The position numbers and the translations under genes were made by a program. A stretch of DNA of 64,000 nucleotides, taken from the NCBI GenBank assembly GCA_950295325.1, contig OX485807.1:39460440-39524439 (forward strand), in the 5' to 3' direction. This DNA is from Polytrichum commune. Lineage: Eukaryota; Streptophyta; Polytrichopsida; Polytrichales; Polytrichaceae. This document shows, in pieces, positions 9,985 to 34,033 of the stretch (the first letter of the stretch is position 1; each line of letters begins with the position of its first letter). The notes beneath the pieces were generated by a model, which saw nothing but the letters and a program-made list of their open reading frames with translations, was not told where the DNA came from and ran no database searches.

Positions 9985-10901
9985 GACATTCTTGACCATT
10001 TTCTAGCAAGGGTCACGAGTGCGAACCCTTCGCATTCCGCCATGCTAATGGTTAGCTCCCCAAACTGCGGATCTTATAGTTCATGGGAGGGAAACCAACC
10101 CTCTTACTTTACTTTCGGGACTCACCCCTTAATCGGTAACAATTCTTAGATGTGGACTTTCATCCATGGAAGTCCAATCTTATGTTGATCATCGCAATGC
10201 CGGAGCAAGACTATAACAATCTAAACCATACTAGGCAACTATGCCCTCACATTGGGCCAATACCCATGGAGACCGTGCCGTTCGGCCACACCACCTCACC
10301 CATATAAGCCTCTAGGACTTTTTACAGGGTCCCTACCCCACCAATAAATCTTTTGTCTCTCTACCAAGAGTTGGGGCCAAGTAGACATTTTCCTTTCCCT
10401 TAGCCGTTGGGGCTAGAAGCCCCCAACAGCTTCAAAACATCATAACTTTCTTGTATGATGTCTGATGCTAAAAGCGACCACTCCATCTTCATCTACACTT
10501 GCCTCACTTGGACCCCTCACTTGCCTCATTTGGCCAAGTATTGAGGAAGTTATGCATGTTCAAACTTTGGCAGTCTCGGGAGCCACTCCCAAGCCACTGT
10601 TGTACCAGGTGTGGTCCCAGGACAGCGCCCCATTCAAATTGCCATATCTTCTAGCTCACACCTCCAATTAAGATGTTCTTGCATTCTAGAATCAACACGC
10701 CATATGCTATGCATAGCTTATGACCTTACCCTTGTGACCCTTAATCTCCGTGAATGGGAGGCGTTCCCAACGCCCGAGGCCCTCACCCGCATTAGGATCA
10801 CTTGGGCCCTCTCACCAATGGCGCCACAAATTCCGAGTGTCACTCTGGGGTCCCCCTTGTGCCCACGGTGTTTCGGGCATCCTCATGGAGCGGTGCACAC
10901 A
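9985..10901 (-). repeat. Diverged solo LTR, same family as the 17.5-24.8 kb element
   Basis: Read on the minus strand, this segment aligns along almost its whole length with the 976-bp LTR found at 17,488-18,463. Shared blocks include the TGT..GCACC start (here at 10,901), the GGTTACCGATTAAGGGG region, the paired ATGGATGGAAG block and the CATGGTGTTTCGGGC block. It differs at many positions and its 3' terminus is truncated or rearranged near 9,985. No internal retroelement sequence is attached on either side, so it is a solo LTR or a truncated copy and is much older than the 17.5-kb element. I could not identify a target duplication. Confidence 0.8.
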
Positions 10902-11712
10902 TCAAACAAAGTCTTGCCTCCAAGATACACATGACATGTCTGTGAACTTCTTACCATAAATTAAATGGAATCTCTTACGGAACATCATAGTATAGCATGG
11001 TATGACGATCAATTTACCTTTTCCCTTTGTAAGATTCACATATCTTCAAGATAAGTGATTCTAATCATATAATAATTCGATGGGTAAAAACGTTATATCA
11101 AAGAAATAGTATAGGCCTTATGAAAAACACTCTAGTTTGGTTTAGTTTGCCCATAAAATCAAACATATTTAAGGAGAATAATTCAGATAGTATTTCAAAA
11201 TAAGTCAAACATCCTTGGGTCAAAGCACTTTGACCTTTCAGAGAATGTTTCCATTTTTCTACATTAAGAAATATAAAATTTATATTGCATGGTTTCACAA
11301 AAATAAAAATACCAAACTAGATACCTACTTAAAATGGGGCTCGTACACCCCTTTGAGCACGTCCCATACATGCACTTGTTTGTTGCACAACATAGATGGA
11401 GAGATCGAAATGAGCCCCTCATCATGGTTTAGGGAATGCCTTTCATACTTCCTTTAAGGATTGCTTTGAACGGATGAAATATGGATTTTCATGAATGAAA
11501 TTTGCCTCACTTGTTGAAATGACATGATAAAGTTTATTCCCATAAGGCAAAGACCGTAAAGTCTACCTAAGGTTTAGACAAATTTGTTGGTAATCTTGCA
11601 AAACATTATCTCAACCAACTTTTGATTTTGCTCTTGGGATATTTGTACACGTATATTACTTGTAATATTTTCATTAAAAATCCTAATAACCAGTACGCTA
11701 AGTTTTTTGTTA
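10902..11712. other. Intergenic, left flank of the giant transposon
   Basis: AT-rich DNA without a supported gene. It is the host side of the left junction of the 18.7-kb element. Its last bases, joined to the sequence after 30,439, would form the empty target site. Confidence 0.5.
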
Positions 11713-11722
11713 ACATGAGTAT
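11713..11722 (+). repeat. Left target-site duplication of giant transposon
   Basis: ACATGAGTAT lies directly outside the left terminus. The identical 10-mer lies directly outside the right terminus at 30,430-30,439. A 10-bp duplication fits the 8-11 bp range of Mutator-like (MULE) transposition. Confidence 0.85.
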
Positions 11723-11830
11723 GAGGGAAGCTAACACATGAGCAATGAGCCGTGAGCAGTGAGCGGTGAGCGGTAACACATGAGCAGTGAGCGGTAACAC
11801 ATCAGCAATGAGCAGTAACATGTGAGCAAT
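11723..11830 (+). repeat. Left terminus with TGAGCRG subterminal array
   Basis: From the terminus GAGGGAAGCTA the sequence runs into about a dozen close copies of TGAGCAG, TGAGCGG and TGAGCAA, partly arranged as a longer unit containing GGTAACACATGAGC. The inverted counterpart is at the right end. Just inside, ACCAAATTTAGTAATTGG here resembles the reverse strand of the right end (AAAATATTTGGTAATAGG), extending the terminal similarity beyond 100 bp. Such heptamers are plausible transposase or accessory-protein binding sites. Confidence 0.75.
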
Positions 11831-12053
11831 GATACCAAATTTAGTAATTGGGCACGGTTTTAGGTAATATTTTCTAAAATTGGCAATCATATTTTTGGAA
11901 TATAAAGTACTTGCATTCGGATTGAAGAAGAATGAAGGCAACTTATAACCATGGATACTTAGTCCATTGCTGGTTTTTATTATAGAAATCCACACTAATA
12001 CATGTCACTTATTCAAATTCTCAAACATGTAGTCAAATAGAACACTTGAAATA

Positions 12054-15000
12054 TTACTCACATTCTATAACATCTGCAAGTTCAAGTAATCGCATGACCT
12101 CGTTGTAGGAGTACGTTGGAGCATGAATGAACTTGTCACTATCATAATCCACTTTGCACAAAAATCTAAACACGTAATAAAGATGTTTGCAATACACCCA
12201 TTTCCCTTTCTTTCCCAAGGACTAAGATGACATTTTGGTGAAGTCAGGGCATGTGCAATGCGGCATATCGCCAATTGTGACACGATATGTGATGTCCTCC
12301 TTGGAGACGATGTTGATTAGCACTCCAAATCCTGGATATGGAATGGCAGTTATTCCAACCACATAATATCCGTCCATAAGCCCGGCGCTCTCCCATTTGT
12401 TTTTATGATCTACTGCTGGTGCTGCTAGATTGTGGCGCACTAACTTGCCAAACCTGGAAATTGGGTGGGCATCCGGATTTAGTGGCACATGAAAATCCGT
12501 CCGAGGGATTGGGAGCATCGCAATTGTTGAAAGCCTACGGCGAGGAGAGAGAGCCTCCCTCTGCTACAATTGGAACCCAGGCATTGCACAAAGTCCCTGT
12601 ATTGGCTTGCATTGCCCAACATCTTTTGGCAGAGTTGGCTGGCAATCGTGCAATATGCCAATGGGAAGAAGAACAATCAGTCTCTAACACTGATGTGGTA
12701 TGTGCCACACCATGCTCTGTAGAAACCAAAGATTCCTCTATGATTGCCCTTCTAACCCTAGTGTTAGGGCGAGGAATGGAGTAGTTCATTTTATCGGGTC
12801 GGTGTGAATCACAATCTGCACCCGGTGGCAGATCAAGCTTTCGTTTGGTGGATCCAAACAACTCAGACCCCTCCAAAGCACAATCCCTAGTATTGAGATC
12901 TTGCAACCCTGGATAGGACATCATGGCATCTGCCAATAGTTTCGGATCTCCGCACCTGGCAGCAGCTTTCAAAATCAATGACGCAAAATCAGGCCCTTTA
13001 CCAGTAGAACCACCTCTCAACCATGATCTGTAATTTGCAATCTGCATGAATGCACGGATCAAATCGTCCACTGTTGCTTCATACAAACAAGTCATCTTGT
13101 TTCCAGACTGCTGGAGCCATTTGTTGTGCACTGTTTCTGCAAGATTACACGTTGGCATTTCTGCACGTTCATCCATTGTCATATCCTGCAAAAATATTAC
13201 ACAAATTAGAATAGATGGTATATGTAAATATATATCATGGATTTCTAAAAAGTAAAATAACATCTGAAATACATAGTAATGAAGCACTTACAAGAATCAT
13301 ATGACCACCCCATTGCCTATAACGAAAGTGCCAAAACCCCAACCACTCGGACAAGCCGAGAATGCCTTCTTGTGTAGCAGCTCCGGATGACAACCACCAT
13401 GAACGAATGACATGATATCTAGTTTCAGCTTCATCAATTGGTTTTCGCGTCTTTATAATCGTTGCATAGTTGTTTGTGCTGAAACTGCAAAGATGTCTTG
13501 ATATACTTCTGCGTCACCTTATCCAAACTTTGTGACCAATGAAAAAGACAAATACGCTCACGACCCACCATTGGCAAACTTGGGTCACCTACACCATAAA
13601 TCTTTCTGACCGCATTCCAATTAGCCTGAGCGCTATCTGCCATGAAACCTTTGAAATTTACTTTTGACACTCCATTCTCCGACATGACAGAGTTCAAGTT
13701 TTCCCAAAAGAGCGTTTGAGCTACGCCATCTTCAGATTGCATGTCACAACACGCAATGGTCAACACCTTACAGTACTTGCTATCATACACATGACACGCA
13801 AGGGTGGTCCAGCCCTTCAGACGTTTGACGTGATCAAACATTATCCATGAATTCTCCATATCTCCTCCCACCTGCATACGTTTCACAAGATCCACACCAC
13901 TTCCCAGAAGATCTACTGACATTTTGAAGACAAATACATTGTCTTTGGATTGTCCCGGGAATCTACTATCATGGACATACTTGAAGCCTGAATGATCTTT
14001 GAGTGCCATGATACTATCCATTGTGCCCATTCCACTACGAACAAAGCGCTTTGAGCCCGATACAAAATTACGACAATTTGGAGAGGCAAGAGTATTGAAT
14101 TTATCCATGACGACCTCTAATGACGAACCTACTAGGTGATGTTCTTCACCATTTGATAGAGATTTTAGAAGGTAGTCTGCTAGGAATTTTTTGCTCGCTG
14201 CCATAACTATTGCAGAGTTTTTGGCAGTGGGTGTTTTCATGACCTCATTGGTAAGCCATATCAAGTGACTCACGACGTGTACCATTTGATACAGGGTGTT
14301 CATGAACACCTAAATGTATACAAGCTCTGGACATCCTTGGGGATGTGGAGTGAACATATAGTATGCGAGCATGACACAACGCAATACACGTTGGTGTTGA
14401 ACGACATACCTTACATTCCAATCTTGATTTTTCTGGGGCAACATCTCCCACAGAAAATGGGATAGGAGTCGATCCAATCCATTCAGTGCAGTTGTGAACA
14501 CCTCCATTGCGATCCAGATAATCACAGTATGTATTTATACACTGTAAACAACCGGCACATGAAGAACGTCTGAAAGAAAGTCCAAAATCGTTTTGGATAT
14601 TTGTTGTTTTGGTTGTGCACCAAGGATGTCCGTCGCACATCTTATCCATGCCATCCATGGAACGCCCATACGTATTAGAAACATCCATAGCTATTGGAGG
14701 CAAAATAAAGATAACATCACCATCAAAAGATGGTGGCAAGTACTTGACATCACGTACATCTATAGTGTCAAAATCAATTGCAGTAAGATCGGATTTAGAT
14801 CTTCTCCTAGACTTTGTCATTTTTAATGCATCGACAATATTAAAACCTGAAGAAGATGAAGAAGGATGAAGAGGTGGACGTTGAGACGAAACACCATGGC
14901 GAATCAATTTCATGTACGACGAATTGTGAGGGGTTTTATCAACATCCACAGAGACCAGAACCAGATTGGAAGGCTTAGTCTTATAAGGAAAAGGTGATGT

Positions 15001-15417
15001 ATCAGAAATATCAACAACAGGACAAACCTCTTCATCTGAATCCAACAACACAAGAACATCATCGTCACTTGGTTCTATCTTGACAGTAGCCATACTAGGC
15101 ACATTGACAGTAGATGCACCAGACTCATTTGTCAACAAAACAGTGGATGCTTGCATCTGAGACTCAGTAAGCCCTATAACTCTAAATGATCCTGGACCTA
15201 AAATCCAAAAGTATCCATCTTAACACATGTTTTTCGGAATCAAAATTGTCTCCAAGATATCGCCGTTCGTGGAATACATCTCTTGCTCCACGTACATAGA
15301 TCCTATCCGGATATTGAACCTCAAACTAAGCAACTCTTCTGAGACCTTCACATGATGATCATCCTCAAGAGGCAAAGTAAAGGGTACAAATGATCCAGAT
15401 GCTTTAATGGTAGCCAT
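12054..15417 (-). pseudogene. MULE-like transposase with zinc cluster and SWIM finger (decayed)
   Basis: The start is taken at the ATG reading MATIKASGSFVPFTLPLEDD (15,417). In order: an N-terminal globular part of about 65 residues; an in-frame TAA (15,220-15,222); an acidic linker with VLVLLDSDEE, a typical SUMO-interacting pattern; a Cys/His cluster (LECKVCRSTPTC, then ACIHLGVHEHPV); a MULE-type catalytic region with SWIMFDHVKRLKGW and GFMADSAQANWNAV supplying likely acidic residues, followed by ERICLFHWSQSLDKV; and a C-terminal SWIM finger (PHCTCPDF, later YCKHLYYVF; CxC..CxH). An intron at 13,186-13,291 has GT-AG ends. Frame changes occur near 14,250, 13,450 and 12,520, and an in-frame TAG at 12,222-12,224 splits the SWIM finger. 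The gene reads toward the left terminus about 330 bp away. The assignment to MULE rather than a related DDE group is inferred from layout and motifs. Confidence 0.72.
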
Positions 15418-16654
15418 TTTGAAGTAAGGGTATTGGAGAATGAGAGACATTGGAATGTGCAAATGAAAGACTATTTGTATTGGCAATATTGGACCTTCGC
15501 AAGAAACCCTAAATGAAAACAATAAAAAAATGAAGAAACCCTAATATCTAATAACAATGAAGGCGATCACATTCAAATGATAAAATAGATTACAATAAGC
15601 AAGTTTCCGCGTCGGAAAAAAACAACAAGGAAAATATACGGTGTCAGTATATTTCAAAATAAATATTCTAATCAATAGAATAGAACCACGCGTTAGTAAG
15701 ATTCAATATATATGTGTAGGAGTATGCACCAAACTTCGTATGAGTGTTTTAGAAAGTGAGTTGTATAGCGGTTAGCATTATTATCACAGATGCAAGAGGT
15801 AGATCAACATGAGACTTGGACACAATTGAGTGGAAGAAGGAAGAGACAAAAATGATTGTACTTCACAACAAAGAGAGTTCGAGAACGAGCAAGTAGTATG
15901 AGGAAAAAATCTAACATTGTAGTGCAGAAATATATAGATGATTTAGCAAAAACACAAAAGAGTATAGATTTGAATGATTTGGACGAAGAAAGTGAAGAGG
16001 CAAGAAAAGAGGTTGATGGGGATGTATACAACAATACTGCGGATAAGAATGGAGTCCACGATGATGCTGAAGAGAGGAAGGAAATGAGCAAATCAAGATG
16101 TATGAAAAAAATGACAACAACTGTCTGCACGGAAGCGAAGAAGATGAAGATGAAGATGAATATGGAGACGAAATTTATTGCATAAGTATCTTTTGAGCAT
16201 TTCATAGGAAATTACACATATTTGACATAACACAAATGCTATTGGAATTGCAATTTGATGAGAGTTATAGTTAGCCAAATGATAGAGCAAGCGCATTAGT
16301 TTGTTGAAAGTAGATAATTTTATTAAAAAATTATTAAGAAGGATCTACGCACACTTGCATAGGAAAGCCTTCTATGTATCCAACCTATGTAATTTCTTGC
16401 CTAACCACTAGCTCATTAGGGGATAGCACCAGTTAATGCAACCAACCGGATTCGAACCCCGGTAAGTGCAGACCGAAATATCAGTCTTTTTAGACTACTC
16501 GCATCCACAGGTGGATGTCTTAAATCCTTTTGCACACAGTTATATTCAATTCGCGAAGGTATATGATCGGTTCTAGCTAGTCTACTATAAGTAACGACAA
16601 ATACGTTTAAGAGTCTAGAAGGTATTAACAGGACTATAAATTTCATACCCTTTC
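15418..16654. promoter_or_regulatory. Divergent upstream region of the transposase gene
   Basis: This is the leader side of the left gene. It contains AT-rich DNA, an uncertain small open frame (15,856-16,185) and a tRNA-like B-box element near 16,440-16,465 (GGGTTCGAATCC on the minus strand) with no matching tRNA fold. No TATA box can be chosen with confidence. Confidence 0.35.
15856..16185 (+). CDS. Small Lys/Glu-rich open frame, hypothetical
   Basis: The 109-codon frame is highly charged, with an N-terminal basic stretch (KRVRERASSMRKKSN), an acidic centre (LDEESEEARKEVDGDV) and a low-complexity KMKMKMNMETK tail. It lies between the transposase start and the palindromic minisatellite, on the same strand as the ParB/methyltransferase gene. 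It has no recognisable domain, and purine-rich DNA readily gives open frames of this composition, so it may be spurious. If real it would be a third element gene or a lost exon. Confidence 0.25.
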   Translation: MYFTTKRVRERASSMRKKSNIVVQKYIDDLAKTQKSIDLNDLDEESEEARKEVDGDVYNNTADKNGVHDDAEERKEMSKSRCMKKMTTTVCTEAKKMKMKMNMETKFIA

Positions 16655-17487
16655 CCGGTGTATGAAAATAGAAACACGTATGAGGACCGCCAATACCCTA
16701 TCCGGTATGAGAGTGGAAATATGTAGGAGGGCCCCTAGGGTATTGGCGGTACCGCCACAACCCCCCGTGTATGATAGTGGATACACGTATGAAAGCCCCA
16801 TGGGTATTGGCGGTACCTGCTACTATCATTTTGGGTATGAGAGGGGAAATACGACGGAGATCCCGAAGGCTATTGGCGGTGCCGCCAATACCCCCTGGGT
16901 ATTAAAATCAAAACATGTATAAAGGCCCCAGCGGTATTGGTGGTGCCCCCAACACCCCTCCCCCACGGCCACCGTGGGTATGGAAATATATATACGTATG
17001 TGGTCTCACAGGTATTGGTGGCATCACCGATACCCACCGGGTATGAAAGAATAAATATGTTAGAGGTCTAAGGGGTATTGGCGGCACCGCCAATACCCCT
17101 TCGGGTATGAAGGAAGAAATACGTATGCGGTCCAAGGGGTATTGGCGGCACCGCCAATACCCCTTCGGGTATGAAGGAAGAAATACGTATGGGGTCTAAG
17201 GGGTATTGGCGGCACCGCCAATACCCCCTCGGGTATAAAGAAGGAAATACGTATGGGGTCTGATGGGTATTGGCGGCACCGCCAATACCCCCTCGGGTAT
17301 AAAGGAGGAAATACGTATGGGGTCTGATGGGTATTGGCGGCACCGCCAATACCCCCTCGGGTATAAAGGAAGAAATACGTATGGGGTCTAATGGGTATTG
17401 GCGGCACCGCCAATACCCCCTTGGGTATAAAGGAGGAAATACGTCTGTGGTCTAAGGAGTATTGGCGGCACCGCCAATACCCCCTCG
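16655..17487. repeat. GC-rich palindromic minisatellite, left part
   Basis: About 13 tandem units, the last seven highly regular at about 61-63 bp. Each unit has a near-perfect palindrome: GGTATTGGCGG, a 2-nt centre (CA, TG or TA), then CCGCCAATACC. This is followed by a spacer of the type GGGTATGAAGGAAGAAATAC. Units on the left are more diverged. The long minus-strand open frames here are by-products of the repeat period. The array is cut at 17,487 by the LTR element and resumes at 24,785. The stems could extrude as cruciforms or give hairpin RNA. Each arm also contains ATTGGCGG, which fits the E2F consensus WTTSSCSS in inverted pairs. Confidence 0.9.
17483..17487 (+). repeat. Left 5-bp target duplication of LTR element
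   Basis: CCTCG immediately precedes the left LTR. The same five bases follow the right LTR at 24,785-24,789. Confidence 0.92.
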
Positions 17488-18463
17488 TGTCGCGCACCTC
17501 TCCATGAGGAGTGCCCGAAACACCATGGGCACAAGGGGGACCCCGGAGTGACACCCGGGACTTGTGGCGCCGTTGGTGAGAGGGCCCAAGTGATCCTAGT
17601 GTGGGTGAGGGCCCCGGGCGTTGGGAACGCCTCCCACCCACAAAGACTAGGAGGCATGAGGGTGAGGCCATGAGCTATGCGTAGCTCATGGCGTGGTGAT
17701 TCTAGAATGCTCAAGATCACCTCAATCGGAGGTGTGAGCTAGGAGTTATGGCCATTTGAGTGGGGTGCTGTCCCGGGACAGCGCCCTGGTACAGCAGTGC
17801 CTGGGAGTGATTCCCGGGACTGCCAAGGTTCAAACAGGCATAACTTCCTCAAGCCTTGCCCGAATGGGGCAAGCAAGGAGTCCATCGGCATCTACGTGAA
17901 GCGTAGATGAGGATGGAGTGGTTGGTTGTTATGATCAGACATCATACAAGGAAGTTATGATGGTCTGAAGCTGCTGGGGGGGGTTCTAGGCCCAGCAGCT
18001 AAGGGAAAATGTCCACTTGGCCCCAACTCTTGGTAGAGAGACAAGAGGTTGGTTGGCGGTGGGGTAGGGGCTCCGTGTAGAGTCCTAGAGGCTTATATGG
18101 GTGAGGTGGTGTGGCCTCACCCACCCGAGGCCGAACGGCACGGCCTCCATGGGCATTGGCCCATTGTGAGGCCATAGTTGCCTAGTATGGTTCGGGTTGT
18201 TGTAGTGTTGCCCCGGCAACGCGATGATCAACATAGGATTGGACTTCCATGGATGGAAGTCCACATTGGGGAAATGGGTTACCGATTAAGGGGTGAGTCC
18301 CGAAAGCAAAGTAGGAGGGTTGGTTCCCTCCTATGAACTATTGGTCCGGGGTAAGAGGAGCTATCCATTAGCATGGCGGAATGCTAAGGGTTAGCCACTC
18401 GTAACCTTTGCTAGAATTCAAAATAACCAAGATGGTCAAGGGGGACTAGCAAGGGTTGCGACA
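17488..18463 (+). repeat. Left (5') LTR
   Basis: 976 bp from TGTCGC to GCGACA. It contains GGCTTATATGGG near 18,090, a candidate TATA region. It appears identical to the right LTR, with a constant offset of 6,321 bp along its whole length. Confidence 0.95.
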
Positions 18464-18465
18464 CT

Positions 18466-18477
18466 TGGTATCAGAGC
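18466..18477 (+). promoter_or_regulatory. Primer binding site (tRNA-iMet)
   Basis: TGGTATCAGAGC lies two bases after the left LTR. It is the standard plant retrotransposon primer site complementary to the 3' end of initiator methionine tRNA. Confidence 0.93.
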
Positions 18478-20080
18478 AGGGTTCCAAGTTTTGAGCTCGC
18501 ACTTTGAGGGAAACATGGGTATCAAAAATGCGGGTTATGATGGTGAGCCCGGGGTTTCCAAAAGGTTGTGAGGCTCAAATTGGAACAAGGATCATGTGCA
18601 AATGGAGTTTGACCATACCATTGATTTTAATGGTAATGGTGGGCATGAGGGTGGATTCGGTGAGGAAAATGGAGGTGTCCTTTGAAAAGGGCTCCCGCAA
18701 ACCTCAAATAGTATTTGGGGCCTAGAATACCGAATGCACCCAAAACCTTGGAGGGTGTTAATGTTGGATTGAAATTTCAATTCGAAATGCTTCGAAGGTT
18801 CGGATGTTGAAATGAACTTGGTGCTAATGAGGCACCCAGGGCCTCTTAAGGCCTATGTGCGCTATTCAAACGCACAAATGAAGGATACACCTAAAACGGA
18901 CGAGCTTTCTAAGAAATGCATCGTTTTAGGTGGGGTTTTAAAAGCGGGTGGTGGATGCCTTGTTTAAGTCCCCAAGGCTTCTTGAGGACATGGTGGGGAT
19001 CATCAAGTTTGCAAGATCATTGAATCCGATGGTCCCGAAGAAAAGTTTGGCGGCGCATCACCACAAGTGGCTTTAGCCAAAGTTGGTCCCAAAGAAATGA
19101 GTGCAAATTGTTTGGTTCATTTTACTTAGGCAAAATATGTTGGTGCTGCTAACAGAATGTTGAAAGGTGGCTTTATGCTTCCAAGGCAAATCATACTCAT
19201 GCCGCGGACGGAATGTTGGAAGGTGGGTTTGTCCTACCAAGGCAATTCATGTTCGTGCCGCATACGGAGTGTGGGAAGGTGGCTTTGTGCTATCAAGGGA
19301 AAACATGTTTGTTTTGTGGACAAATTATTGGAAATTGCTTTTGTGGCACTAAACCAACTCGTCCCACGGACGAAATGTTAAAAGTTGGCTTTGCGGACCG
19401 AGCCAAAACATATTGTTGCGGTGGAGGGAGAATTAGATGGTGGCTTTGTGGCCAAGGCTAGTAGCCTTAAGCCAAGGCCAAGTCATGTATACCTTGAGGC
19501 TCAAATGAATGGGAGATATGTCTCATGAGTTGTCAAAGAGGCAACGGACTCTTTCATGAGCCGAAAGCTCACAAGGGGGTTGGGGCTCGAGGACGGGTAG
19601 AGCCGGCAAGCCCACCAAAGTACGGTTTGCAAAGGGCGAACCGCATGAAGCAAAGGAGGCGGCGATGCATGTAACCTTTTGATGTGGGACATTGGATTTT
19701 TGTCAAAATTTCACACCATGTGAAATAGATGAAATGCATGTCATTGTGAAGGCCGCCTACTTTGAAACTCACATGATAGATGTGAGGTGCAAGCCGGTGA
19801 GCTTGCGGTGCATTATGATGTGTCATAATGGAAAAGAATTGAAGTTCAAATTGACAAGGACTCCTATGGTAGGAGGATCCAAGTTGAATTTGGTCTTATT
19901 GGACCAAATGAAAAATAGAAAACATAATGGTCGTGGTTCAATTATAGCAACTCCAAGGAATGTATGGGGAGGCTAGGAAAGATGGGCCTCCCCCAAACAA
20001 TATTGGTGTGATGTTGGTGAGATACAAGGATGTATTCACCAATGTGTTGCCAAAAAAAAAAATTACCGCCAAGGAGTGAA
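18478..20080 (+). pseudogene. Degraded gag/protease region of the LTR element
   Basis: The sequence has only short broken frames. A protease/pre-RT-like stretch is seen at 19,692-20,080, ending in VMLVRYKDVFTNVLP, which matches the conserved segment just before Gypsy reverse transcriptases. No zinc knuckle or clear aspartate triad can be read. The stretch 19,157-19,400 is a local tandem repeat. Confidence 0.55.
19157..19400 (+). repeat. About 55-bp tandem repeat in gag region
   Basis: Units beginning with GAATGTTGGAAGGTGGGTTT or close variants start near 19,157, 19,210, 19,265 and 19,370. Each carries an ACCAAGGCAA or ATCAAGGGAA block and a CATG block. The last unit is the most diverged. Confidence 0.7.
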
Positions 20081-22994
20081 AAATAACTTTGCTCAACGAG
20101 AGATTGAGTTCTTGAGGTATGTGGTGACAAAGGAAGTTGGTGGACGAACATGAAGAATGTCAAGGCAATCCAAAAGGAGAATTGGCCCTTGATTCAAAAG
20201 GGCTTAGGTCATTTGTTGGCCTAGCCAATTAGTACCACAACTTCATTCGAGAGTTTTCTAAGGTTGCTAGGACCTTATTCAACTTATTGAGGAAAATGGC
20301 TATCCCAAGAGTGGGATGAGCCTTGTCACCAAGCCTTTGGAGGGCTCAAAAACAAGTTCTCTTCGCCGCCCGTGCTTAAGTTCGCGGACTTTGACAAACC
20401 TTTTGAGGTGCATACGGGGGCGAGTGACTTTAGCATTGGTGGATGTTGAGGCAAAATGGATGGACATTGCATATAAGAGCATGAATCTCGATGGTTGTCC
20501 GACCTTGTCCAACTTATGCAAGAAATGGCTATCCCAAAAGTGGGATGAGCTTTGCCACCAAGTCTTGAAGGAGCTTAAGACCAAGTTTTCTTCGCCGCCC
20601 GTGCTCAAGTTTGCGAAATTTGACAAACCTTTTGAGGTGCATACGGGGGCGAGTAACTTTACCATTGGCGGATGTTGATCCAAGATGGATGCCCATTGCA
20701 TATGGGAGCATTAAGCTTAAAGGTTGTCAAACCTTGTGCGACTTGTGAAAGAAATGGCTATCCCAAGAGTGGGATGAGCCTTGCCACCAAGTCTTTGAGA
20801 AGCTTAAGAGCAAGTTCTCTTCGCCGCCCGTGCTCAAGTTCGCGGACTTTGACAAACCTTTTGAGGTGCATACGGGGGCGAGTGACTTTACCATTGGCGG
20901 ATGTTGAGGCAAGATGGATGGCCATGGCATATGAGAGCATGAAGCTCGATGGTTGTCCCACCTTGTGCGACTTGTGGAAGAAATGGCTATCCCAAGAGTG
21001 GGATGATGTTTGTCACGAGTCTTTGGGGAGCTTAACACCAAGTTTTCTTCGCCGCCCGTGCTCAAGTTCGCGGAGCTTGACAAACCTTTCGAGGTGCATA
21101 CGGGGGTGAGTGCCTTTGCCAATGGTGGATTATGTGTAAGATGGATGGCCATTGCATATGGGAGCATAAAGCTCGATGGTTGTCAAAGAAGACAACCAAC
21201 TCATGACAAAGAATTTCTTTGCTGTAGTGCATTGCTTGAAGATGTGGCGACATTATATGGGGTCGCACAAAACAAAGGTCTACATGGACAATGTGTCCTA
21301 AAAGTATTTTGACATACAAGCGTAAGTGAACGCCAAGTCATTGCGGAGGCATGATAGTTTGGCGCTTATGAAGGTGGATTTGATCCACAAACCGGACCGT
21401 TGAAATGTGGTGCCGGATGCGCGAAGTAGACCGGAAGAGTTCCAAGCAATGAGAACCATCCAAACCTTGTGGCTAATGTGTGCCGGCGAAGGAAACTTGT
21501 GATGCAAGATACGGGAGGGGTAAATTAACTACCCCAAAGCACAAAAGCTTTTAGGTGAGCTTCGCAAGAGCAAGGTGCTCAAAGAGATTAAGTTGGTGGA
21601 CGGATTGTTCAAGTGCAAACAAAGTCGGGTATATGTGCCACAAGGCAAGTTGAGGCTATCGGTTTTGAAGGAGGAATATTATAGTCCTATTGCCGGCCAT
21701 AGAGGAGAAAGAAAAAGCCGCCATAGAATGGTGTCAAAGAGGTACCATTGGCGGTGCATAAAGGAAGATATAACCCACTTTGTGAAGGCTTGAATCAAAG
21801 TGCCAAGTGAACCGAGCCTCTTACCAAAAGCAAGGCGGCTTCTTGTAACCGTTGCCTATCCCGTTGGCGCCATGGCATGGTATGTGCATGGACTTGATCA
21901 CAAGTTTGCCGGAGTCACATGGGTATGATGCCATCTTGTTGATGGTACAGCGGTTTGCCAAGTGGGCACACATGGTGCCGATTGTGGGAACCGCCACCGC
22001 GTTGGAGACCGCATAGCCTTTTCTCAAAGGATGGTTGAGGCACCACGGGTTGCCAAGAGTGATTGTGAGGGATCAAGATCCAAAGTTCACAAGTGCATTT
22101 TCAATGCATTTCTCTAAGGAGGTCGGAATGAAACTAAGGTTTAGCACGGCCTTGCATTCCCAAATGAATGGGAAAGCGGAGCATGTGAATGGAGTCTTGA
22201 AGCAATACTTGAGGAACTTGGTGGGGGCGGACCAAGGAGATTGGGCGGACTATGTGGGTCGAGCGGAGTGTAATTGCAATGTAGCCACGCACTTGGCTAC
22301 CAAGGGGTGGTCTTTCGTGGTGGCTTATGGAGTGGATGCGCTCCAACCTATTAACCTAGCTCTCGAGGGGGCACATTCAACACTAGAGTTCAACCAAGAT
22401 GGTAAGGACTTGGCCAAGGAGCAAAAACAAGTCTTGGAGATGACCAAGTTGTTGGTGGAGAAAGCCCGAAGGTGCTACGGAGTGCAAATCAATGCCGGAA
22501 GACGCGAAGTGGAGTATGAGGTGGGCCAATAAGGTGTTGTTGAATGTGGACAACTTCACCTTGCCCAAAGGCCTTACTCCAAAAGTTCATGTCCAAAATT
22601 GGAGCTTCGTTTTCCATTGTGGAACAAGTGTTCAAGGACATGTATAAGTTGGAATTACCGCCGGAGATCAAAGTGCATCCGACATTTCATGTCTCATTAC
22701 GAAAGTCATTTTAGGACGACACCTTGTGGCCCGATCACAAGCAAGTGATTAGGCCACCTCCCGACCTTGTGGAGGTCATTTGGAACATGAGGTAAGAGGG
22801 CATCCTCAAGTGTAGGAAGCCCAAGTGAAAATGAAAGAAAATGTACAAAGGAGTACTTGGTGAAATGGTGAGGATACCATGAGAAACAAACCGCTTGGGT
22901 GGCGGCAAGAGACATGGTGAACACCAATGAATTGGTGAAGCACTTTGAAGAAACTAAGGCTAAGGATTCCAATAAAATGAAGCGGAGGCATTGA
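20081..22994 (+). pseudogene. pol remnant: RNase H, integrase, chromodomain (RT core absent)
   Basis: After the pre-RT segment the sequence jumps directly to the end of the RT domain (LRSFVGLAN near 20,205). Next come an RNase H N-terminal part (SSPPVLKF, DFDKPFEVHTGAS) repeated four times, a partial RNase H end (PTHDKEF), an integrase zinc-binding part (GHRGERKSRHRM, about 21,690), an integrase core with VRDQDPKFTS and HSQMNGKAEHVN that keeps the second Asp and the Glu, and a chromodomain-like end (KEYLVKW, TAWVAARDMVNTNELVKHFE) near 22,839-22,990, interrupted by TGA. Many frame changes and stops separate these parts. The palm with the YxDD motif is not present. Confidence 0.85.
20290..21186 (+). 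repeat. Four-copy 229-bp tandem amplification of RNase H segment
   Basis: The landmark AAATGGCTATCCC occurs at about 20,293, 20,523, 20,751 and 20,980, a period of 228-230 bp. Each copy carries the CCGCCCGTGCT and GAGGTGCATACGGGGG blocks coding for SSPPV and FEVHTG. The copies differ by scattered substitutions, so the amplification predates the latest insertion. Confidence 0.92.
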
Positions 22995-23793
22995 TGAGGA
23001 CATCAATCTCCTTTAGTGGGGGAGAGACGCTAGTAGCACACTTAGCTTCGAGGTTAATTGCTCCACAACATGAACTTGTTCTTTGGCTTGAGGGAATAAA
23101 GTCCAAACTTTAGTGGTGCAAAGAGAAAAGTATGAGATGAGGTCCTAGTCTTGTACTTGTGCTTGGTTAATGGAAGAGGGGGAATAGATATGCCAAACTA
23201 GGTTGGGTAAGCCGAGTAATTGGGGGCCATGGCTTAGAGGGGCCTTGGATAAAACCAAGAAACTTCTTAGTTGTGGGCTTGTCCGGGCGGGGACAAGGTG
23301 ATGGCGCGTGCTCATAAAAGTGCTACCCGCGAGCTAACGAGAGTTGGCGCATGGGAGTCATGAACCCATGTCTCGAAAGAGCAAAGTGGGAACCGAGTCG
23401 GGCGGGACTTGGCATCACCCCCGTGCGATCAAGGCGTGGCTTAACAATGGAAAGCCATCTCGGAGTTGCAACCGAGACAACTTAGTGGAAGCGTTGAGGT
23501 CTCGCCTAGATGTGTCACGTTAGGCTAGTGGAGCCTAACGGGGGAGGCCCCAAAGGAGGGGCAACCCAAGTGAGTCCTAAAGTAGGTGGGTCTAGTATAG
23601 GTTAGGTCCTTGGATGAGAGATCCAAGGTCGCTAACGGACCACCTAGGAACGACACCTTTGGGACTATGCCAAATTTGAAGATGCATTGTGGGGGTCGCG
23701 CCCTAAGGTAAACACAATGCCGCACCATAGAGGATGGCAACTTGAGAATTGGTGTGCCGACTACGAGTGTAGTCGATGAGGGCATCGACTCCG
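22995..23793 (+). other. 3' untranslated spacer of the LTR element
   Basis: About 800 bp of non-coding DNA between the chromodomain remnant and the polypurine tract. A second purine run (AGTGGGGGAGAGA, near 23,015) could be a relic tract. No extra gene is recognised. Confidence 0.5.
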
Positions 23794-23808
23794 TTTGGTG
23801 GGGGTGAG
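23794..23808 (+). promoter_or_regulatory. Polypurine tract
   Basis: TTTGGTGGGGGTGAG abuts the right LTR start (TGTCGC at 23,809), the position expected for plus-strand priming. Confidence 0.8.
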
Positions 23809-24784
23809 TGTCGCGCACCTCTCCATGAGGAGTGCCCGAAACACCATGGGCACAAGGGGGACCCCGGAGTGACACCCGGGACTTGTGGCGCCGTTGGTGA
23901 GAGGGCCCAAGTGATCCTAGTGTGGGTGAGGGCCCCGGGCGTTGGGAACGCCTCCCACCCACAAAGACTAGGAGGCATGAGGGTGAGGCCATGAGCTATG
24001 CGTAGCTCATGGCGTGGTGATTCTAGAATGCTCAAGATCACCTCAATCGGAGGTGTGAGCTAGGAGTTATGGCCATTTGAGTGGGGTGCTGTCCCGGGAC
24101 AGCGCCCTGGTACAGCAGTGCCTGGGAGTGATTCCCGGGACTGCCAAGGTTCAAACAGGCATAACTTCCTCAAGCCTTGCCCGAATGGGGCAAGCAAGGA
24201 GTCCATCGGCATCTACGTGAAGCGTAGATGAGGATGGAGTGGTTGGTTGTTATGATCAGACATCATACAAGGAAGTTATGATGGTCTGAAGCTGCTGGGG
24301 GGGGTTCTAGGCCCAGCAGCTAAGGGAAAATGTCCACTTGGCCCCAACTCTTGGTAGAGAGACAAGAGGTTGGTTGGCGGTGGGGTAGGGGCTCCGTGTA
24401 GAGTCCTAGAGGCTTATATGGGTGAGGTGGTGTGGCCTCACCCACCCGAGGCCGAACGGCACGGCCTCCATGGGCATTGGCCCATTGTGAGGCCATAGTT
24501 GCCTAGTATGGTTCGGGTTGTTGTAGTGTTGCCCCGGCAACGCGATGATCAACATAGGATTGGACTTCCATGGATGGAAGTCCACATTGGGGAAATGGGT
24601 TACCGATTAAGGGGTGAGTCCCGAAAGCAAAGTAGGAGGGTTGGTTCCCTCCTATGAACTATTGGTCCGGGGTAAGAGGAGCTATCCATTAGCATGGCGG
24701 AATGCTAAGGGTTAGCCACTCGTAACCTTTGCTAGAATTCAAAATAACCAAGATGGTCAAGGGGGACTAGCAAGGGTTGCGACA
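23809..24784 (+). repeat. Right (3') LTR
   Basis: 976 bp, the same length and apparently the same sequence as the left LTR. It is followed by the CCTCG duplication and by the resumption of the palindromic minisatellite. Confidence 0.95.
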
Positions 24785-25484
24785 CCTCGGGTATGAAAGA
24801 GGAAGCATGTACAAGGGCTTGGGGATATTGACGGTGCCGCCAATACCCCTCAGGGTATGGGAGAGGTTATGCATTAGAAAATACCAAGGGTATTGGCGGT
24901 ACCGCTAATATCCCTAAGGCCTAAAGTTGCGATGTTTGTAAAGATATTGGCGGTGCCGCCGATACCATCCGGGTAGGAAACTGAAAGTATTTTTGGGTAA
25001 GCAATGTCCTCATCCAAATGTAAATTTTCATCCAATAAGATTCATTCGTAAAAAAAAATTGATAGACAAGGTAGAAAACCCTAAGTTCAGTTCATTTTCG
25101 GTGGCTGAACATTGAGAAGAGTGGCAAGCCGTGGTGGTAGTAGGGAGGTGGTGGAAGAAGATATTAGGTGTCGCGGATTGTCGGAAGGTCGGATGTAACA
25201 AAGTATGCGGTGATTATCTTCATTTGTGTATGTATGTATTGTGTATTCTGAAAATGCATATGAAAAGTTATTTTCAAGCTTAAGAACGTGTATTTGTAAT
25301 CTGTATAAGTATATGTTGTTATAATCTGTATAGACAAATGAGTTTGTAGTTGAGGGTATTGGCGGTGCCGCCAATACCCCTGTAAGAACGAAATATTGAA
25401 GGACTGAATGCTTTGATAACATAATGAAGAACCAATTCTACTATGTATCAACAGTGTGAGGATATTGGCGGCACAGCCAATATA
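24785..25484. repeat. Palindromic minisatellite, right part, with isolated palindromes
   Basis: After the LTR element the array resumes with three diverged units to about 24,975. Single palindromes stand at 25,354-25,380 (GGGTATTGGCGG and its inverse) and 25,461-25,484 (degenerate). Before the retrotransposon insertion this and the left part formed one array between the two divergent genes. Confidence 0.85.
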
Positions 25485-25625
25485 CCAAAGACTGTGTGTA
25501 TGTGTATGTTGGTGTGAATATGAGTGTATGAATGTCTGTGTTTTTGTATGTGTGTGTTTTGTGTGTGTGGTTATGTTTGTGTTGTTTGTGTTTATATGTG
25601 TGTGTGTATGTGTGTTTTTTTTTTT
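25485..25625 (+). repeat. GT-rich low-complexity tract
   Basis: Imperfect TGTGTG/TATG repeats end in a T run, about 500 bp upstream of the ParB/methyltransferase start. It may give Z-DNA-prone sequence. No coding potential is inferred. Confidence 0.7.
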
Positions 25626-26122
25626 AAAAGTCCAAAATTGGTAGATTTGGGTTTTAAGTGGTGAATTTTTAAAATTACAAGAACACCTTAGATTACGTTG
25701 AAAATAAATAAGTGTATACATTTAGATCATTCCAGTAGACATGATTGTTTGTGGAATTTAAAACTTGAATTTGGATTTTTAGGAATTTTCCAAAGTCTAC
25801 TTTTTTTGTGGGGTTGAAGATTTGTAATCTAATGTACCCCCTCGGTACATTCTAGAATTTGTTTTATGCAATGTTTTTTTCAACTAGGCAACTTTGAAGG
25901 TCCATAAAAATTGAAGATTGTGATGAAAAATTATAAAATAAATACGATCAGATTCATTTTGTTTGGCTCTACAACTTGTTTATATAATGTTTTTTTATAT
26001 GAGTTGATTTTTTATTTTTAGAAATTTGTTGAAGTTCTACATAAGAAGTTGTTTGTTGTTTTGAATTTAGTTGAGGTGATCAACAATTTGTGTTTTGACA
26101 AGTTTCTTCATCTTTATTGCAG

Positions 26123-29100
26123 ATGGAGACAAACGATATTTCTAAGCATTTGGCTTCTGATAACAAGCCAAATGATGATTTGTGTGAAGTCACTTCTTCT
26201 CATGTGAAAGCAAATGCTATTTTGAGTGATCATTCGTTTGATTCTAAGTCAGTGATTGAAAATCTGCAATTTCAACCTACTTCAAAATCAAGATTCTTCA
26301 TTCCGTTATGTCGTTTGCTTTCAATGCCTTTGGTTCGACCAACCTTGATGTCAGATGTTCTCAAGTTGGAACAGGGATTTATTCATGGGTATAAATCCGG
26401 AAGTGTCGTATTCTATATCTCAGTTGTAAACAATGAAATGAAAACTGAGGATGTGACCTCTGAATTGATAAATTCTTGGAATATACACTGGAAAAATGCA
26501 AGTGCAAAATTCGATGAGTTTCTAAAAGAAGATGAGGTTCTCGACAAATTTGTGGGCAAAATGTTTTGGGTGTGGGATGGGAATCATCGTTTGCAAGCAT
26601 GGAGGTCAGTTATCGATAAGCATCATTTAAAAGAGGCAACTTGGCACATTTCAGTGGTATCTATTTTATTGAATCCATCCCCTGATGTTGCGGTGCTGCT
26701 CACGGCAATGCACGATCTCAACAGGTAAGTTTTTACCGTGTAATTTATATTTTTTTTTTTCATTTCGCAAGTTTTTTGTTTGTTTCTTATTCGTTTCTTG
26801 TATTTCTTATTGAATTCGTTTTGGTTGTTTCAGTCATGTTGAACATTCTCATGTGAAGACCAACCTTGTGCATCAACTGTATCGTGTGCAAGCTATCGGA
26901 AGTTTACCCATTGAAAGCTTCAAAAATTTATTGACACTTAACCAATACAAAAAGTGCATCACAAAGACAATTGCAACGTGGTACTCGCTTACACGGGATC
27001 TCTTCTTAGATTATTTATATAATGTAAGTTTCATACCACTCTTCGCACTCTTCGTTTTTTTCATTAGCTTTCTTGTTTTAATCGTATTTTTGTGTTTAAC
27101 CGATTTAACATATTTCTGTGTTTAGCGTGATATTGCTGATGCAGAAGATTTGGCCAAGAAAAAATATTTTGAGGTTACTTAAGAGCATGAGAGGTTTGTT
27201 GAAGGAGTTACTGAATTTATGAATGTAGCAATGGATGCCAAACGTGTTAAACTAGACTCTAGTCTTGCAAAGCATTTACCCATTGCGGATCCCAGTTTGG
27301 GACATGGTTTCTTGGCTCAAATCAAACGGCATTATGATTTGTGTTATGAAGAACCTCAAATGAATCAAGAAAAGCTTCAGCATCTTGTGACATCGAAAGT
27401 AGATGCCGTGCAGAATGTTAAATGGTTGGAGCTGTGGAATTCAACTCCTGCATTTCGCATGTCTTTGAAATTTCCAAAAATGCCTATTTCCGATAAGGCT
27501 TTTGATTTGTGGTTACACAAAGCAACCTTGTGGAGTCAGGTAATAATATCTCGTTGAAGTCTGTTTTGATCTGAATAATTGTAAGTATTATTTTCATATT
27601 ATATGTATTCCATACTTTTGTTCTCACTTGTTTTTTCTTTTTCTTTCAACAGTTGGCTAAAGAAGCTCTTGTTCTCTATGATTCCATAATTTCTAAATTA
27701 AACATCATCATCAAGATCGCTCCTGAAACAGTAGAACCTTTGCCACTTTTTGCTGATTATGTTGAATCTTGGAGGGTTACTTGTTGGGAAACGACATTTT
27801 TCAAATTGTTCAAATCAAATGACGGCATTATTAAAAAACAAGACTTTTGATAAGCAGCCTGGAGGACTTCAAGCCATGAGGCGGGTTGTTTACAGGTATT
27901 TGTGATATTTGTCTTGACTGTATTTTATGTTTGACATTCTTCATTTTTTTCCAAATTCTGTAATTCTTTTTACTTGAATCTAATTTTTTGGGTTACACAG
28001 ATACTTTAAGCGTGTGTTGTTGCCTGCCAATGCTTTGGATAAGCTACCAACATTTTTTGACAGTTTCAAGGATGTTCAATCGGAGAATTCAATGTTCACT
28101 CCTGAAATATGCAAGGATTGGAATGAGGTCCATTGGTATGAATGCGGATGGTATTTGGATTGTCCTAAGAGTAAAACCCCACATTCCGAATTGGAATTGT
28201 GTAATCATCTTGAGCCAGCATTTGTTCCACCTACAGTGGAGGAAGATTTCCCACGTAGTGCACCTATTAAAGGCAAGAGGAAGAATAGTGTTCAAGTGCC
28301 CGAACAATCCAAAGACAATGGTCCAATGAATGATGAACCTTCTGGCAAGAAGCTGAAGGTTTCTAAACCTTCAACTTCATCAAGTACCAACCCTGGTTTT
28401 TCTACAATTTTGGAGCCTTTTACTTCTTTGAGAATCAAGACTAAAGTTTCTCAAACTACACAACGTAGTTAAGGTGTTTCAAAGGCAACACCAACAATTG
28501 ATTTGGTTATTGCAGATATTCCGGAGGGGCAGCTCCCTGTACCTAGAATTTCAACACCTTCTTGGAATGCAAAATCTGATAAATTTCTTCTTGTTCTTTT
28601 TTCATTTTGCATGCAATATCTTCACGACGATGGTGTTTTGTTGATATTTCATCCTGAAGATCCAAAGTGGACGAAAGAATTGTCTACATATTTTTTCAAT
28701 TATAATTTCAAGGTTGGTCATGGACCTTGGACTTGTGTGAACCCACTTCGTCTAGCCAATCCTCACAATCCAAACAAAACGGTTAGTTTCACATCTCTTT
28801 TCATCATAATTTATTCTTTTCAATGAATTTTGTTGTTTCTGAACATTATAGTTTGATTAGTTTGTTATTTTACTTATGTTACATTTGTTGTGCAGACCAT
28901 CAAGTTCACTGCTATCTTGCTTGTACGCTCTTTCAGTGATACTACTCGATTGAAACGCATGCCTTTGCCTTTTCAAATGAATATTGACAAAGATCTTTCG
29001 GAGAATGGTATGAGTCTGGATGATGATGTTTTATACAACTTCACGGATGCTAGTTCTCAACTAATGAGAGATGATGGTATCACACCTTGGAGAGGCCCGC

Positions 29101-29832
29101 GAGTAAAAAATCCATTGTTTTTCCAATGTTTGATTGATGCTTTCTCAAAATCCGAAGGCATTGTTGCAGACCTCACTGCTGGCACAAGTATACAACATTT
29201 TTTTTTTGCTTTGAAATTATTTTATTACGTCTTTTTTACAAACTAACATGTTCTCATTTATTTATGTTTTGATAATTGTTTCTTATATCTTTGATAGGAC
29301 CTTCCATACATGCTTGCCGCGCTTTGAAGCGTCACCTCTTGGCGTTGGAAGGTGATAAAGATGTTTTTGATTCCGTCTTGAAGCCTTTAATTCTACAATC
29401 CCCTTTGCCTATTGGCAAAGATATCAATTTGGAAGACTCGGATGATTCTCCAATTGTTAATCGTGAGGCCGTCAATTTATTTTGTGAGTAAGTTTTGTTT
29501 GTTTATCTTGTTTAAAACCTTCATATGGTTGATTGTGTAATTTTTACTTGCATTATATTGTATATGCATTTAGTTGGATTATTACGAATACTAACACATT
29601 TATGTTGTCATGTGCTAGTAATGTGATACCTCAATGTCGCCGACGTTGGCGACCTTTTTTTGAAGATCCAAATTTTGTAGCAAGTCCATCACCTCTACGA
29701 AGCCTCCCTATCTATGCCGAGACCATGGCTTCCGTTCTTGCTGCTCAATCTTCCCCTTCCTCTACCCATAGCAAATCTAAACGGTATGATCGTCGGGTTT
29801 TGGAGTTCATAGATTTAGAGGCCGAATCATAA
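26123..29832 (+). pseudogene. ParB-like / N4-N6 DNA methyltransferase-like fusion gene, 8 exons
   Basis: Exons inferred from GT-AG sites: 26,123-26,724; 26,834-27,023; 27,126-27,539; 27,653-27,895; 28,001-28,781; 28,896-29,187; 29,298-29,487; 29,619-29,832. They total 2,926 nt, one over a multiple of three. The ATG directly follows a TTATTGCAG acceptor, so a 5' untranslated exon is likely. Exon 1 carries a ParB/sulfiredoxin-like fold with FWVWDGNHRLQAW, the counterpart of the ParB GxRR/DGxHR box. After a Ser/Lys-rich linker, exon 5 has DLVIADIPEG (motif IV position) and exons 6/7 have ADLTAGT..PSIHACRAL (motif I), the IV-before-I order of beta-class amino-methyltransferases. In-frame TAA codons lie at 27,180 and 28,470, and one frame change lies near 27,830. 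The gene reads to the right terminus of the giant element. It is probably non-functional in this copy. Confidence 0.75.
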
Positions 29833-30225
29833 TCAACCTCCGTCACTTTAACTTAAACTAATAATTATTATTTTTTGGCACGTGTTCAACTCTCATATTT
29901 ACACTTGGTATCAATATTTTGAAATACATTAACTTATGATATACCTTGAAGGACTTACACATGTTTTGTGTCCAACTCTATCTTTTTTGCACTCTCTATA
30001 TTTATGTTGTATAATGACCAAATATAAAATTTAGTATCATTGCACCATGTTTTGTTTTATTGTTCAATGTGTTCATATTATGAATGTTAATGATCATCAT
30101 TATCATGAGCATCATTCACTTCAACTTTGTCCATTCCATTGTCATACGGCATGCAATACAACTATGAAAATTTATATATGATAAACATATATATGCCCCT
30201 AGTCATGTACATATTGGTCTTTTTC

Positions 30226-30429
30226 GTTGCTCACTACTCACAATCTAGCATTCATGTTGTTTGTCCTTCCCAATCTTCTTATTATTGAACCCTAAAAATT
30301 TATTTCTTTAGGCCACAGTTATAGGATACTAGGGGACCTATTACCAAATATTTTGTTTTCTTCACCGCTCACAAATTACTGCTCATCACTCACTGCTCAC
30401 TGCTCACCGCTCACAAGATAGCACTCCCC
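30226..30429 (-). repeat. Right terminus with TGAGCRG subterminal array
   Basis: On the reverse strand the end begins GGGGAGTGCTATC and runs into TGAGCGG, TGAGCAG and TGAGTGA copies at 30,364-30,415. A further partial pair lies near 30,228-30,245. It mirrors the left terminus. Confidence 0.75.
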
Positions 30430-30439
30430 ACATGAGTAT
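30430..30439 (+). repeat. Right target-site duplication of giant transposon
   Basis: ACATGAGTAT, identical to 11,713-11,722, directly follows the right terminus. Confidence 0.85.
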
Positions 30440-31889: not shown

Positions 31890-32251
31890 GTCATGTCCAC
31901 ATTAGGTGTAATACTAATTGTAAACCCCGGTGTAGTGTCATCAACACTATATGTAAACCTAACAATATTTTCCATTCCTTGTAATTTGTTTGGGATTATA
32001 GATTTACAATGTTGTAATTACCGTCACTTACTAAGTGATGTTTCATCCAAATTTCAATCATCCATGACAATATTTCATCATAGAAATGTTAGGATGCAAA
32101 TTAACTTTGTTTCAATAATTGGCATTTGGATGAATTGAAAGTAAGTTGGGATCACAATATTTGTAAACATATTCATATGAGAAAGTGTCAATTAAAAAGT
32201 TATCATAGTGACATAAAATACCATATAACACTAAACACAATAGTTAGTGTA
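31890..32251 (-). mobile_element. MITE family A copy (minus)
   Basis: The reverse complement matches the 46,679 copy over most of its length (GTAAACCTAACA, TCATCCATGACAATATTTC and ATGACACTAAA-type end blocks). The left end in this orientation is eroded. Confidence 0.7.
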
Positions 32252-32404
32252 CCTAAAATGTTGATGCTTAATCTAGAAATGCCCGGTATTATATGCAAAT
32301 GCTATGATTTTGGACATAATGAACATGTGTATTGATAGTGTGTGAATTATTTGAAGGCAAATTGATATTGTCAACTAATGGTATACATGTCCTGAATGCA
32401 GGCC

Positions 32405-33660: not shown

Positions 33661-34033
33661 ACTCTAAATATGATATTTAGTGTCATATGGTATTTAATGT
33701 CACTGTGGTAACTTTTTAGATGACACTTCTTATGAATAAGTAAACAAATATTGTCATGGATGATGGATGACTTCATCCATTGGCCAGAACCCTACCTTCT
33801 CTTGTCATCAACTTGTGATGAAATATTGTCATGGATGATCAAAATTTGGATGAAAAATCACTTGGTAAGTGATAGTAATTGCAACAATGTAAATCTATAA
33901 TGCCCCAAATTTTTTACAAGAAATGACAAAGAATATTGGGTTAGCATTTAGTGTTGGTGACACTATACCGCAGTTTACAATTAGTATTAAGCAAGACAAT
34001 TAGAATTGGTGACAGTAAATATCATATTAAGGA
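33661..34033 (+). mobile_element. MITE family A copy
   Basis: It shares ATATTTAGTGTCATATGG, the GATGAAATATTGTCATGGAT block and GTTGGTGACACTA with the other copies. A short unrelated segment (about 33,760-33,805) interrupts similarity. Confidence 0.7.

Follow-up and report, generated by a model that had tools for sequence, protein, structure and literature searches.

A decayed copy of a probable two-gene Mutator-like transposon family with a ParB-like and methyltransferase-like partner gene in Polytrichum commune

What kind of element sets a transposase gene back to back with a gene that resembles both ParB and a DNA methyltransferase? The question is raised by a stretch of 64,000 nucleotides of the moss Polytrichum commune (C5:39460440-39524439, here called the window; the assembly comprises 407.8 Mb in 64 contigs), in which an earlier note had read positions 11713 to 30439 as a DNA transposon. 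We find that this feature is very probably a decayed copy of a two-gene DNA transposon family of the Mutator-like elements (MULEs), an assessment that covers the element and its two-gene content. The family has 10-bp target-site duplications, conserved heptamer-array termini, a MULE/IS256-type transposase and a ParB-like/methyltransferase-like partner facing the other way. In the window the parts are as follows.

11713-11722, plus strand: left 10-bp target-site duplication ACATGAGTAT, an exact repeat with the inverted ends directly inside
11723-11832, plus strand: left terminus, GAGGGAAGCTAACAC... and then a TGAGCRG heptamer array; common to other copies
12057-15417 (about), minus strand: MULE-type transposase gene with D-D-E motifs and a SWIM finger, broken in the window copy
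26123-29829, plus strand: accessory gene, about nine exons by eye, with a ParB-like N-terminal part, a middle region and a C-terminal part like beta-class N6/N4 methyltransferases
26123-26725, plus strand: ParB-like exon of this gene, by its motifs (IPLCRL...; VWDGNHRLQAW)
28473-29422, plus strand: methyltransferase part with motif IV-like IADIPEG and motif I-like VADLTAGTG (PF01555 20.4 bits, below cutoff)
30362-30429, minus strand: right terminus (GGGGAGTGCTATC... on this strand) with heptamer array; common to other copies
30430-30439, plus strand: right 10-bp target-site duplication ACATGAGTAT, an exact repeat with the inverted ends directly inside

Termini and copies of the element

On the plus strand of the window ACATGAGTAT occurs only at these two places; two reverse-strand copies lie beyond the element at 35999 and 36810. 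The inverted ends inside the pair are identical at 24 of 35 positions and thus form imperfect terminal inverted repeats. For comparison we took the 3,796 exact 10-mer pairs that lie 2-30 kb apart in the window, excluding 10-mers with fewer than three different bases. Just three pairs score 24/35 or better, the ACATGAGTAT pair and two others, which reach 28/35 and represent a common palindromic 10-mer within inverted copies of a long terminal repeat (LTR). None of 40 dinucleotide shuffles attains 24/35, the best being 22. The doubled heptamer motif TGAGCRGTGAGCRG (up to two mismatches) matches 11 times in the 64 kb as against 0.69 expected; six of the matches lie at 11739-11815, four more at 30379-30413 and a single one at 30227-30240. 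Both genes are oriented outward, towards these ends. The earlier note had claimed a 10-bp repeat that touches inverted termini with heptamer arrays and an outward-facing gene pair, and the scores and gene positions confirm both.

The same ends recur elsewhere in the genome (loci are given as contig and position in Mb). Ten elements, the window included, were examined at both ends. Exact 10-bp duplications flank eight of them and all eight are different: ACATGAGTAT in the window, GGTATGCGAC, GTAGATTATA, GCATTAGGGG and GGTGCCCCAC, and in divergent subfamilies GGCGATAATG, GAAATACCTA and GTTCATTTGA. GAGC-type heptamers are found at both ends of each of these eight elements. The element at C4:13.14 carries GGTTGCCCCT / GGCTGCCCCT, identical in 9 of 10 bases. 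In the divergent elements the inverted ends match at 23/30, 24/30 and, ungapped, 11/30 positions. The last value belongs to C5:18.22, whose duplication GGCGATAATG ranks third by ungapped score and was picked by eye from the termini, and which is therefore weaker than the other seven. At C1:16.41 and C1:62.55 the right end alone was seen; in the former the element end ...CACTCCCC is the same as in the window and is followed by a different flank. Likewise, the left terminus of the window element recurs with different flanks in the copies L044-L047, L054 and L056. Thus, as the earlier note had expected, equivalent 10-mers sit at the element boundaries of other copies.

We then ask whether the two genes belong together. 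The ParB-like exon and the exon after it, joined into one query (E ≤ 0.001; 1,886 candidates at first look, 144 scored), give at least 255 matches in the moss's own genome; as these are exon-level matches, the elements are fewer than 255. Among these matches are the window itself and nine copies with 74-92% identity in their best rows, several of which have more than one row. The remaining matches form large subfamilies with 56-39% identity. We read the DNA around 13 other ParB-exon copies, and in nine of them a transposase gene lies upstream in the outward orientation (C4:13.14, C5:32.97, C2:20.33, C1:54.05, C4:56.16 and C5:25.12, as well as the divergent copies C3:16.43, C5:18.22 and C4:30.64), as against none of eight unrelated 3-kb loci used as control. 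Each of the three divergent elements with a transposase also has methyltransferase exons downstream. The pair is also kept in subfamilies whose ParB exons share just 44-49% identity. A coincidence of two genes in a single copy is thus rejected, and the recurrence of the pair, on which the earlier note had made its reading depend, is borne out.

The transposase and its partner

The models of both genes were read by eye. In the window the transposase gene is disrupted by in-frame stops and by several breaks of the frame, and it lacks about 220-240 bp at 12579/12580 that six other copies have. Its motifs and fold were assessed in relatives, for which the best fold match is ISCth4 and which have a DDE core of the MuDR/IS256 type. 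The DDE cores of MULEs and IS256 are akin. The SWIM finger (PF04434) scores 22.8 bits in the relative P0071, above the cutoff of 19.6; three of 64 relatives match at E ≤ 1, many of the 64 ending before the SWIM region, and in the window transposase the match of 14.7 bits is interrupted by a stop. Of the SWIM/MULE-like label given to this gene in the earlier note, the fold match and the SWIM finger of full-length relatives uphold the assignment, and the Pfam Mutator models lend it next to nothing (see below). A scan of viral_contigs with the transposase alignment gave 82 pattern stretches, none of which was confirmed.

The accessory gene of the window is broken as well, by stops and one frame break, and is without about 260 bp at 28470/28471 that are found in the C1:16.41 copy. 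A protein search with this gene retrieves just M758_1G295400 of Ceratodon purpureus (38% identity over 60% of the query) and SELMODRAFT_404703 of Selaginella (31%, 24%). The alignment-based protein search, which scored the best 7,998 candidates by number of common words, yields M758_1G295400, Ceratodon KC19_7G101700 (57% identical to the former) and one further protein. The motifs IPLCR...DGNHR, a DG-x-HR box with a preceding IPL motif, are present in the window, Ceratodon and Selaginella; among eight aligned rows the D of the box is E in two and the I of the IPL motif is also seen as V. We take the IPLCR and WDGNHR motifs of the N-terminal part to be ParB-like. When viral_contigs were scanned with the alignment of the accessory gene, none of 166 pattern stretches was confirmed.

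For the C-terminal part, PF01555 (N6_N4_Mtase) is above its cutoff of 26.7 bits in both Ceratodon proteins (P0078, 30.4 bits; P0080, 35.0 bits) and below it in the window copy; the Pfam profile search gave no PF01555 match in the Selaginella relative. The region of the S-adenosylmethionine (SAM) motif is kept in the window copy, C1:16.41 and C4:13.14 and appears as DLTAST or in weaker forms in divergent copies. Catalytic motif IV has the consensus [DNS]PP[YFW], and the flipped base normally stacks on the aromatic residue. Five element copies read DIPEG (window, L053), NIPEG (L040), DLPEG (L062) and EYPDG (L063) and do not fit this consensus. As the aromatic residue is missing from them, catalysis is doubtful. 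The moss ParB-methyltransferase proteins P0078 and P0080 of Ceratodon purpureus carry a near-canonical motif IV, DTPF and DQPY. The earlier description of a ParB/DNA-methyltransferase-like gene needs correction in two points: its ParB half is an assignment by motifs only, and its methyltransferase half has a non-canonical motif IV in the element copies.

Several observations weigh against the reading of this family given above. No transposase is found beside four of the 13 ParB copies, within 8 kb at C1:16.41, 4 kb each at C1:62.55 and C1:33.86, and 9 kb at C1:71.83. The element at C2:20.33 has both ends and no recognisable duplication (6/10 bases). The Pfam Mutator signal is almost nil, Transposase_mut being matched by two of the 64 transposase relatives with a best E of 0.034. 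Profile searches of the N-terminal accessory part give no Pfam or PDB profile in support of a ParB identity. The best ParB-type match, to phrog_1033 ('ParB-like partition protein'), has an E of 0.044 and comes from the Selaginella relative, and the top Pfam match of the window part is MSL3_chromo-like, at E 0.010-0.015 and below cutoff. PDB sequence searches with three profiles returned nothing relevant, and the predicted structure of the Ceratodon relative P0078 is unusable (pLDDT, the predicted local distance difference test score, 31.9). Motif IV has the form D/N/E-x-P-E/D-G without an aromatic residue in the element copies and the same form in the Selaginella protein. Finally, the ratio of nonsynonymous to synonymous change (dN/dS) of the ParB exon is only mildly low in the close family (median 0.62, 45 pairs), the methyltransferase motif-I exon has two close pairs with ratios above 2, based on very few changes, and between subfamilies most pairs are saturated or nearly so.

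For the ParB exon the median is 0.40 when the close family is compared with the divergent set (range 0.22-0.48; 12 of 90 pairs usable) and 0.29 inside the divergent set (14 of 36 pairs usable). Between subfamilies the motif-IV exon gives 0.16-0.38 (6 usable pairs) and the motif-I exon 0.31-0.61 (5 usable pairs); the dS of the methyltransferase exons in these comparisons is 1.6-3.1, which is near saturation. Three close pairs of the motif-IV exon have ratios of 0.61-0.82. The transposase exon yields 0.30-0.70 in the close family (10 pairs) and is saturated between subfamilies. These values suggest that the family diversified under constraint and that its recent copies are decaying.

One of the ParB-exon copies, L060 (C1:71820400-71829399), with no transposase relative in the 9 kb upstream, has long open reading frames of 511 and 326 amino acids and possibly represents another setting.

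Candidate binding sites and a proposed role of the partner

Between the two genes lies an array of palindromes.

16741-17479: left half of the palindrome array TATTGGCGGYRCCGCCAATA, period about 64 bp
24826-25482: right half of the array, separated from the left by a nested retroelement

With up to three mismatches TATTGGCGGYRCCGCCAATA occurs 15 times in the window, every time between the two genes (expected 0.01). The whole assembly holds 57 exact sites and none of the reversed control. Of the 50 sites listed among these 57, 40 lie within nine elements having a ParB match and ten at six places without a ParB match among the matches listed (C3:11033096, C4:11338607, C4:44796454, C4:46598251, C4:48349022 and C5:38790099), which are possibly other or truncated elements. 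Allowing two mismatches, we did not find the palindromes in the stretches read of C3:16.43, C5:18.22, C4:30.64 (about 1 kb of spacer left out) and C5:25.12 (L015), and this too weighs against a family-wide site; in L015 the spacer is probably deleted, because the transposase starts just about 1.2 kb from the ParB exon. A family-wide parS-like site is therefore rejected: the palindromes are a subfamily feature and a candidate binding site, and the terminal heptamers are the conserved repeats. Other repeats lie upstream of the ParB gene in two divergent elements, a 117-bp tandem unit in L058 (1693-2305) and a repetitive open reading frame in L061 (4973-5890).

We suggest that transposition could proceed in the following way. 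The transposase would bind the terminal heptamer arrays via its zinc domain, and DDE cut-and-paste would then move the element with a 10-bp stagger. The accessory protein might target the heptamers at the termini; in one subfamily the target might instead be the palindrome array next to the gene that encodes it. It is possible, though less likely than not, that this protein binds the element's DNA and changes the state of its chromatin or methylation, which would let the element evade silencing or mark it for transposition. As motif IV is altered, DNA binding or SAM binding without methylation is a serious possibility. A more specific proposal, which we hold to be unlikely, is that a ParB-CTPase-like clamp with a methyltransferase-derived domain would load at the arrays of the element (terminal heptamers; palindromes in one subfamily) and spread along it, either as an N6/N4 writer or as a non-catalytic SAM sensor, and thereby counter silencing or hold the ends together. 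If true, eukaryotic transposons would possess a ParB-like system, here in a land-plant MULE lineage with its own epigenetic factor that binds DNA sequence-specifically. The element-specific palindromes and heptamers make binding or marking of the element's own DNA directly testable.

Other explanations have to be considered. The element could be a MULE of the usual kind, with the ParB-methyltransferase gene as a functionless passenger taken up from a host or a bacterium. MULEs tend to pick up host gene fragments, as described in part of PMC6446971, and the decayed close-family copies with their mild dN/dS and the altered motif IV are in line with this. However, the gene keeps its outward place by the transposase in the three subfamily copies at 44-49% ParB-exon identity, and the usable inter-subfamily ratios (0.16-0.61 for the methyltransferase exons, 0.22-0.48 for the ParB exon) point to constraint. 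So long a retention under constraint is too much for a passenger, which we regard as very improbable. That the protein is an active methyltransferase, writing N6-adenine or N4-cytosine marks on the element, would agree with the PF01555 match of the Ceratodon relatives, which keep DTPF and DQPY, and with the SAM-motif region of the element copies. Judged by the departure of motif IV from its aromatic form in these copies and in the Selaginella protein, such an activity seems rather unlikely.

The transposase might also come from another SWIM-bearing superfamily, Zisupton/KDZ. The SWIM finger is present, and a D-D-E core with a C..H insert occurs in several such groups. Yet Zisupton target-site duplications are 8 bp and those of the eight elements are 10 bp, within the 8-11 bp of MULEs; the best fold match is ISCth4, and no KDZ family is among the Pfam matches of the 64 relatives, which does not exclude KDZ. 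We therefore consider this origin a slim chance and retain the assignment to the MULEs.

How does the family compare with known systems? MULEs such as MuDR, Jittery and VANDAL make 8-11 bp duplications, carry a SWIM finger in many groups and have additional open reading frames in several (PMC6446971, in part). The moss family is alike in its 10-bp duplications, SWIM finger, additional open reading frame and, by fold, IS256-like DDE core. It differs in that its transposase is nearly invisible to the Pfam Mutator models and in that the part of Table 1 of PMC6446971 examined has no ParB-like/methyltransferase accessory gene; the words 'moss' and 'Selaginella' are absent from the main text of that paper. 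According to sections of PMC12730594, VANDAL is a MULE with an accessory anti-silencing protein that regulates the element's own epigenetic silencing, fungal DNA transposons encode TET/JBP dioxygenases, and HarbingerS/MuDR elements of Phytophthora encode SET methyltransferases. VANDAL resembles the present family as a MULE with an accessory gene, the epigenetic role of the accessory protein being putative here. Its anti-silencing proteins are named VANC; VANC is not known to be a ParB-like or methyltransferase protein. In the fungal and Phytophthora elements, too, the transposase is accompanied by an enzyme that modifies chromatin or DNA, but there this enzyme is a dioxygenase or a histone methyltransferase.

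In phages and prophages, proteins of the ParB-CTPase fold are fused to an N6_N4 methyltransferase (PF01555) in one protein, as part of PMC12704722 reports. These fusions join the same two parts as the accessory gene and are prokaryotic. Phage tblastn searches gave only chance-level matches for the ParB part of Selaginella (15 records with a best E of about 1) and weak methylase matches for the methyltransferase part of Ceratodon (469 records; E no better than 1e-3 in the best 8). The nearest named relatives of the accessory gene come from a moss (Ceratodon M758_1G295400 and KC19_7G101700) and from a lycophyte (Selaginella SELMODRAFT_404703), in line with a bryophyte-like host; the Ceratodon proteins differ in their near-canonical motif IV. 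Among the matches listed from the open-licence literature, no title or abstract opening describes a ParB/methyltransferase gene in a eukaryotic transposon, which is weak evidence of absence. In several transposon lineages the transposase is accompanied by a protein acting on DNA or chromatin, as with TET/JBP in fungi, SET in Phytophthora and the anti-silencing proteins of VANDAL. The present family, in which a ParB-like/methyltransferase-like gene has stayed next to the MULE transposase while the subfamilies diverged deeply, represents a different solution, of a type otherwise known from phages. In moss gene sets, ParB-methyltransferase genes may belong to transposons, which bears on annotation and on claims of N6-methyladenine and N4-methylcytosine in plants.

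Nested retroelement and neighbouring repeats

17488-24784: nested LTR retroelement, no part of the transposon (LTRs 17488-18464 and 23808-24784; CCTCG duplication)

The LTRs are 100% identical across 978 bp, the insertion is flanked by the CCTCG duplication, and the transposon copy at C1:16.41 is without it. The stretch is a separate LTR retroelement, younger than the transposon. As it accounts for 7.3 kb of the 18.7 kb, the host element measures about 11.4 kb. The length of 18.7 kb claimed in the earlier note hence does not hold for a single undisturbed element.

Within the nested retroelement a 229-bp unit is present in four tandem copies (20271-21184). Just left of the transposon, positions 10001-10904 hold an inverted relative of the nested LTR (82% identical), seemingly a solo LTR. 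At 31910-32253, 33814-34019, 46722-47059 and 55183-55584 a repeat of about 350 bp is dispersed in both orientations; its copies are about 78-84% alike and possibly represent a family of the miniature inverted-repeat transposable element type.

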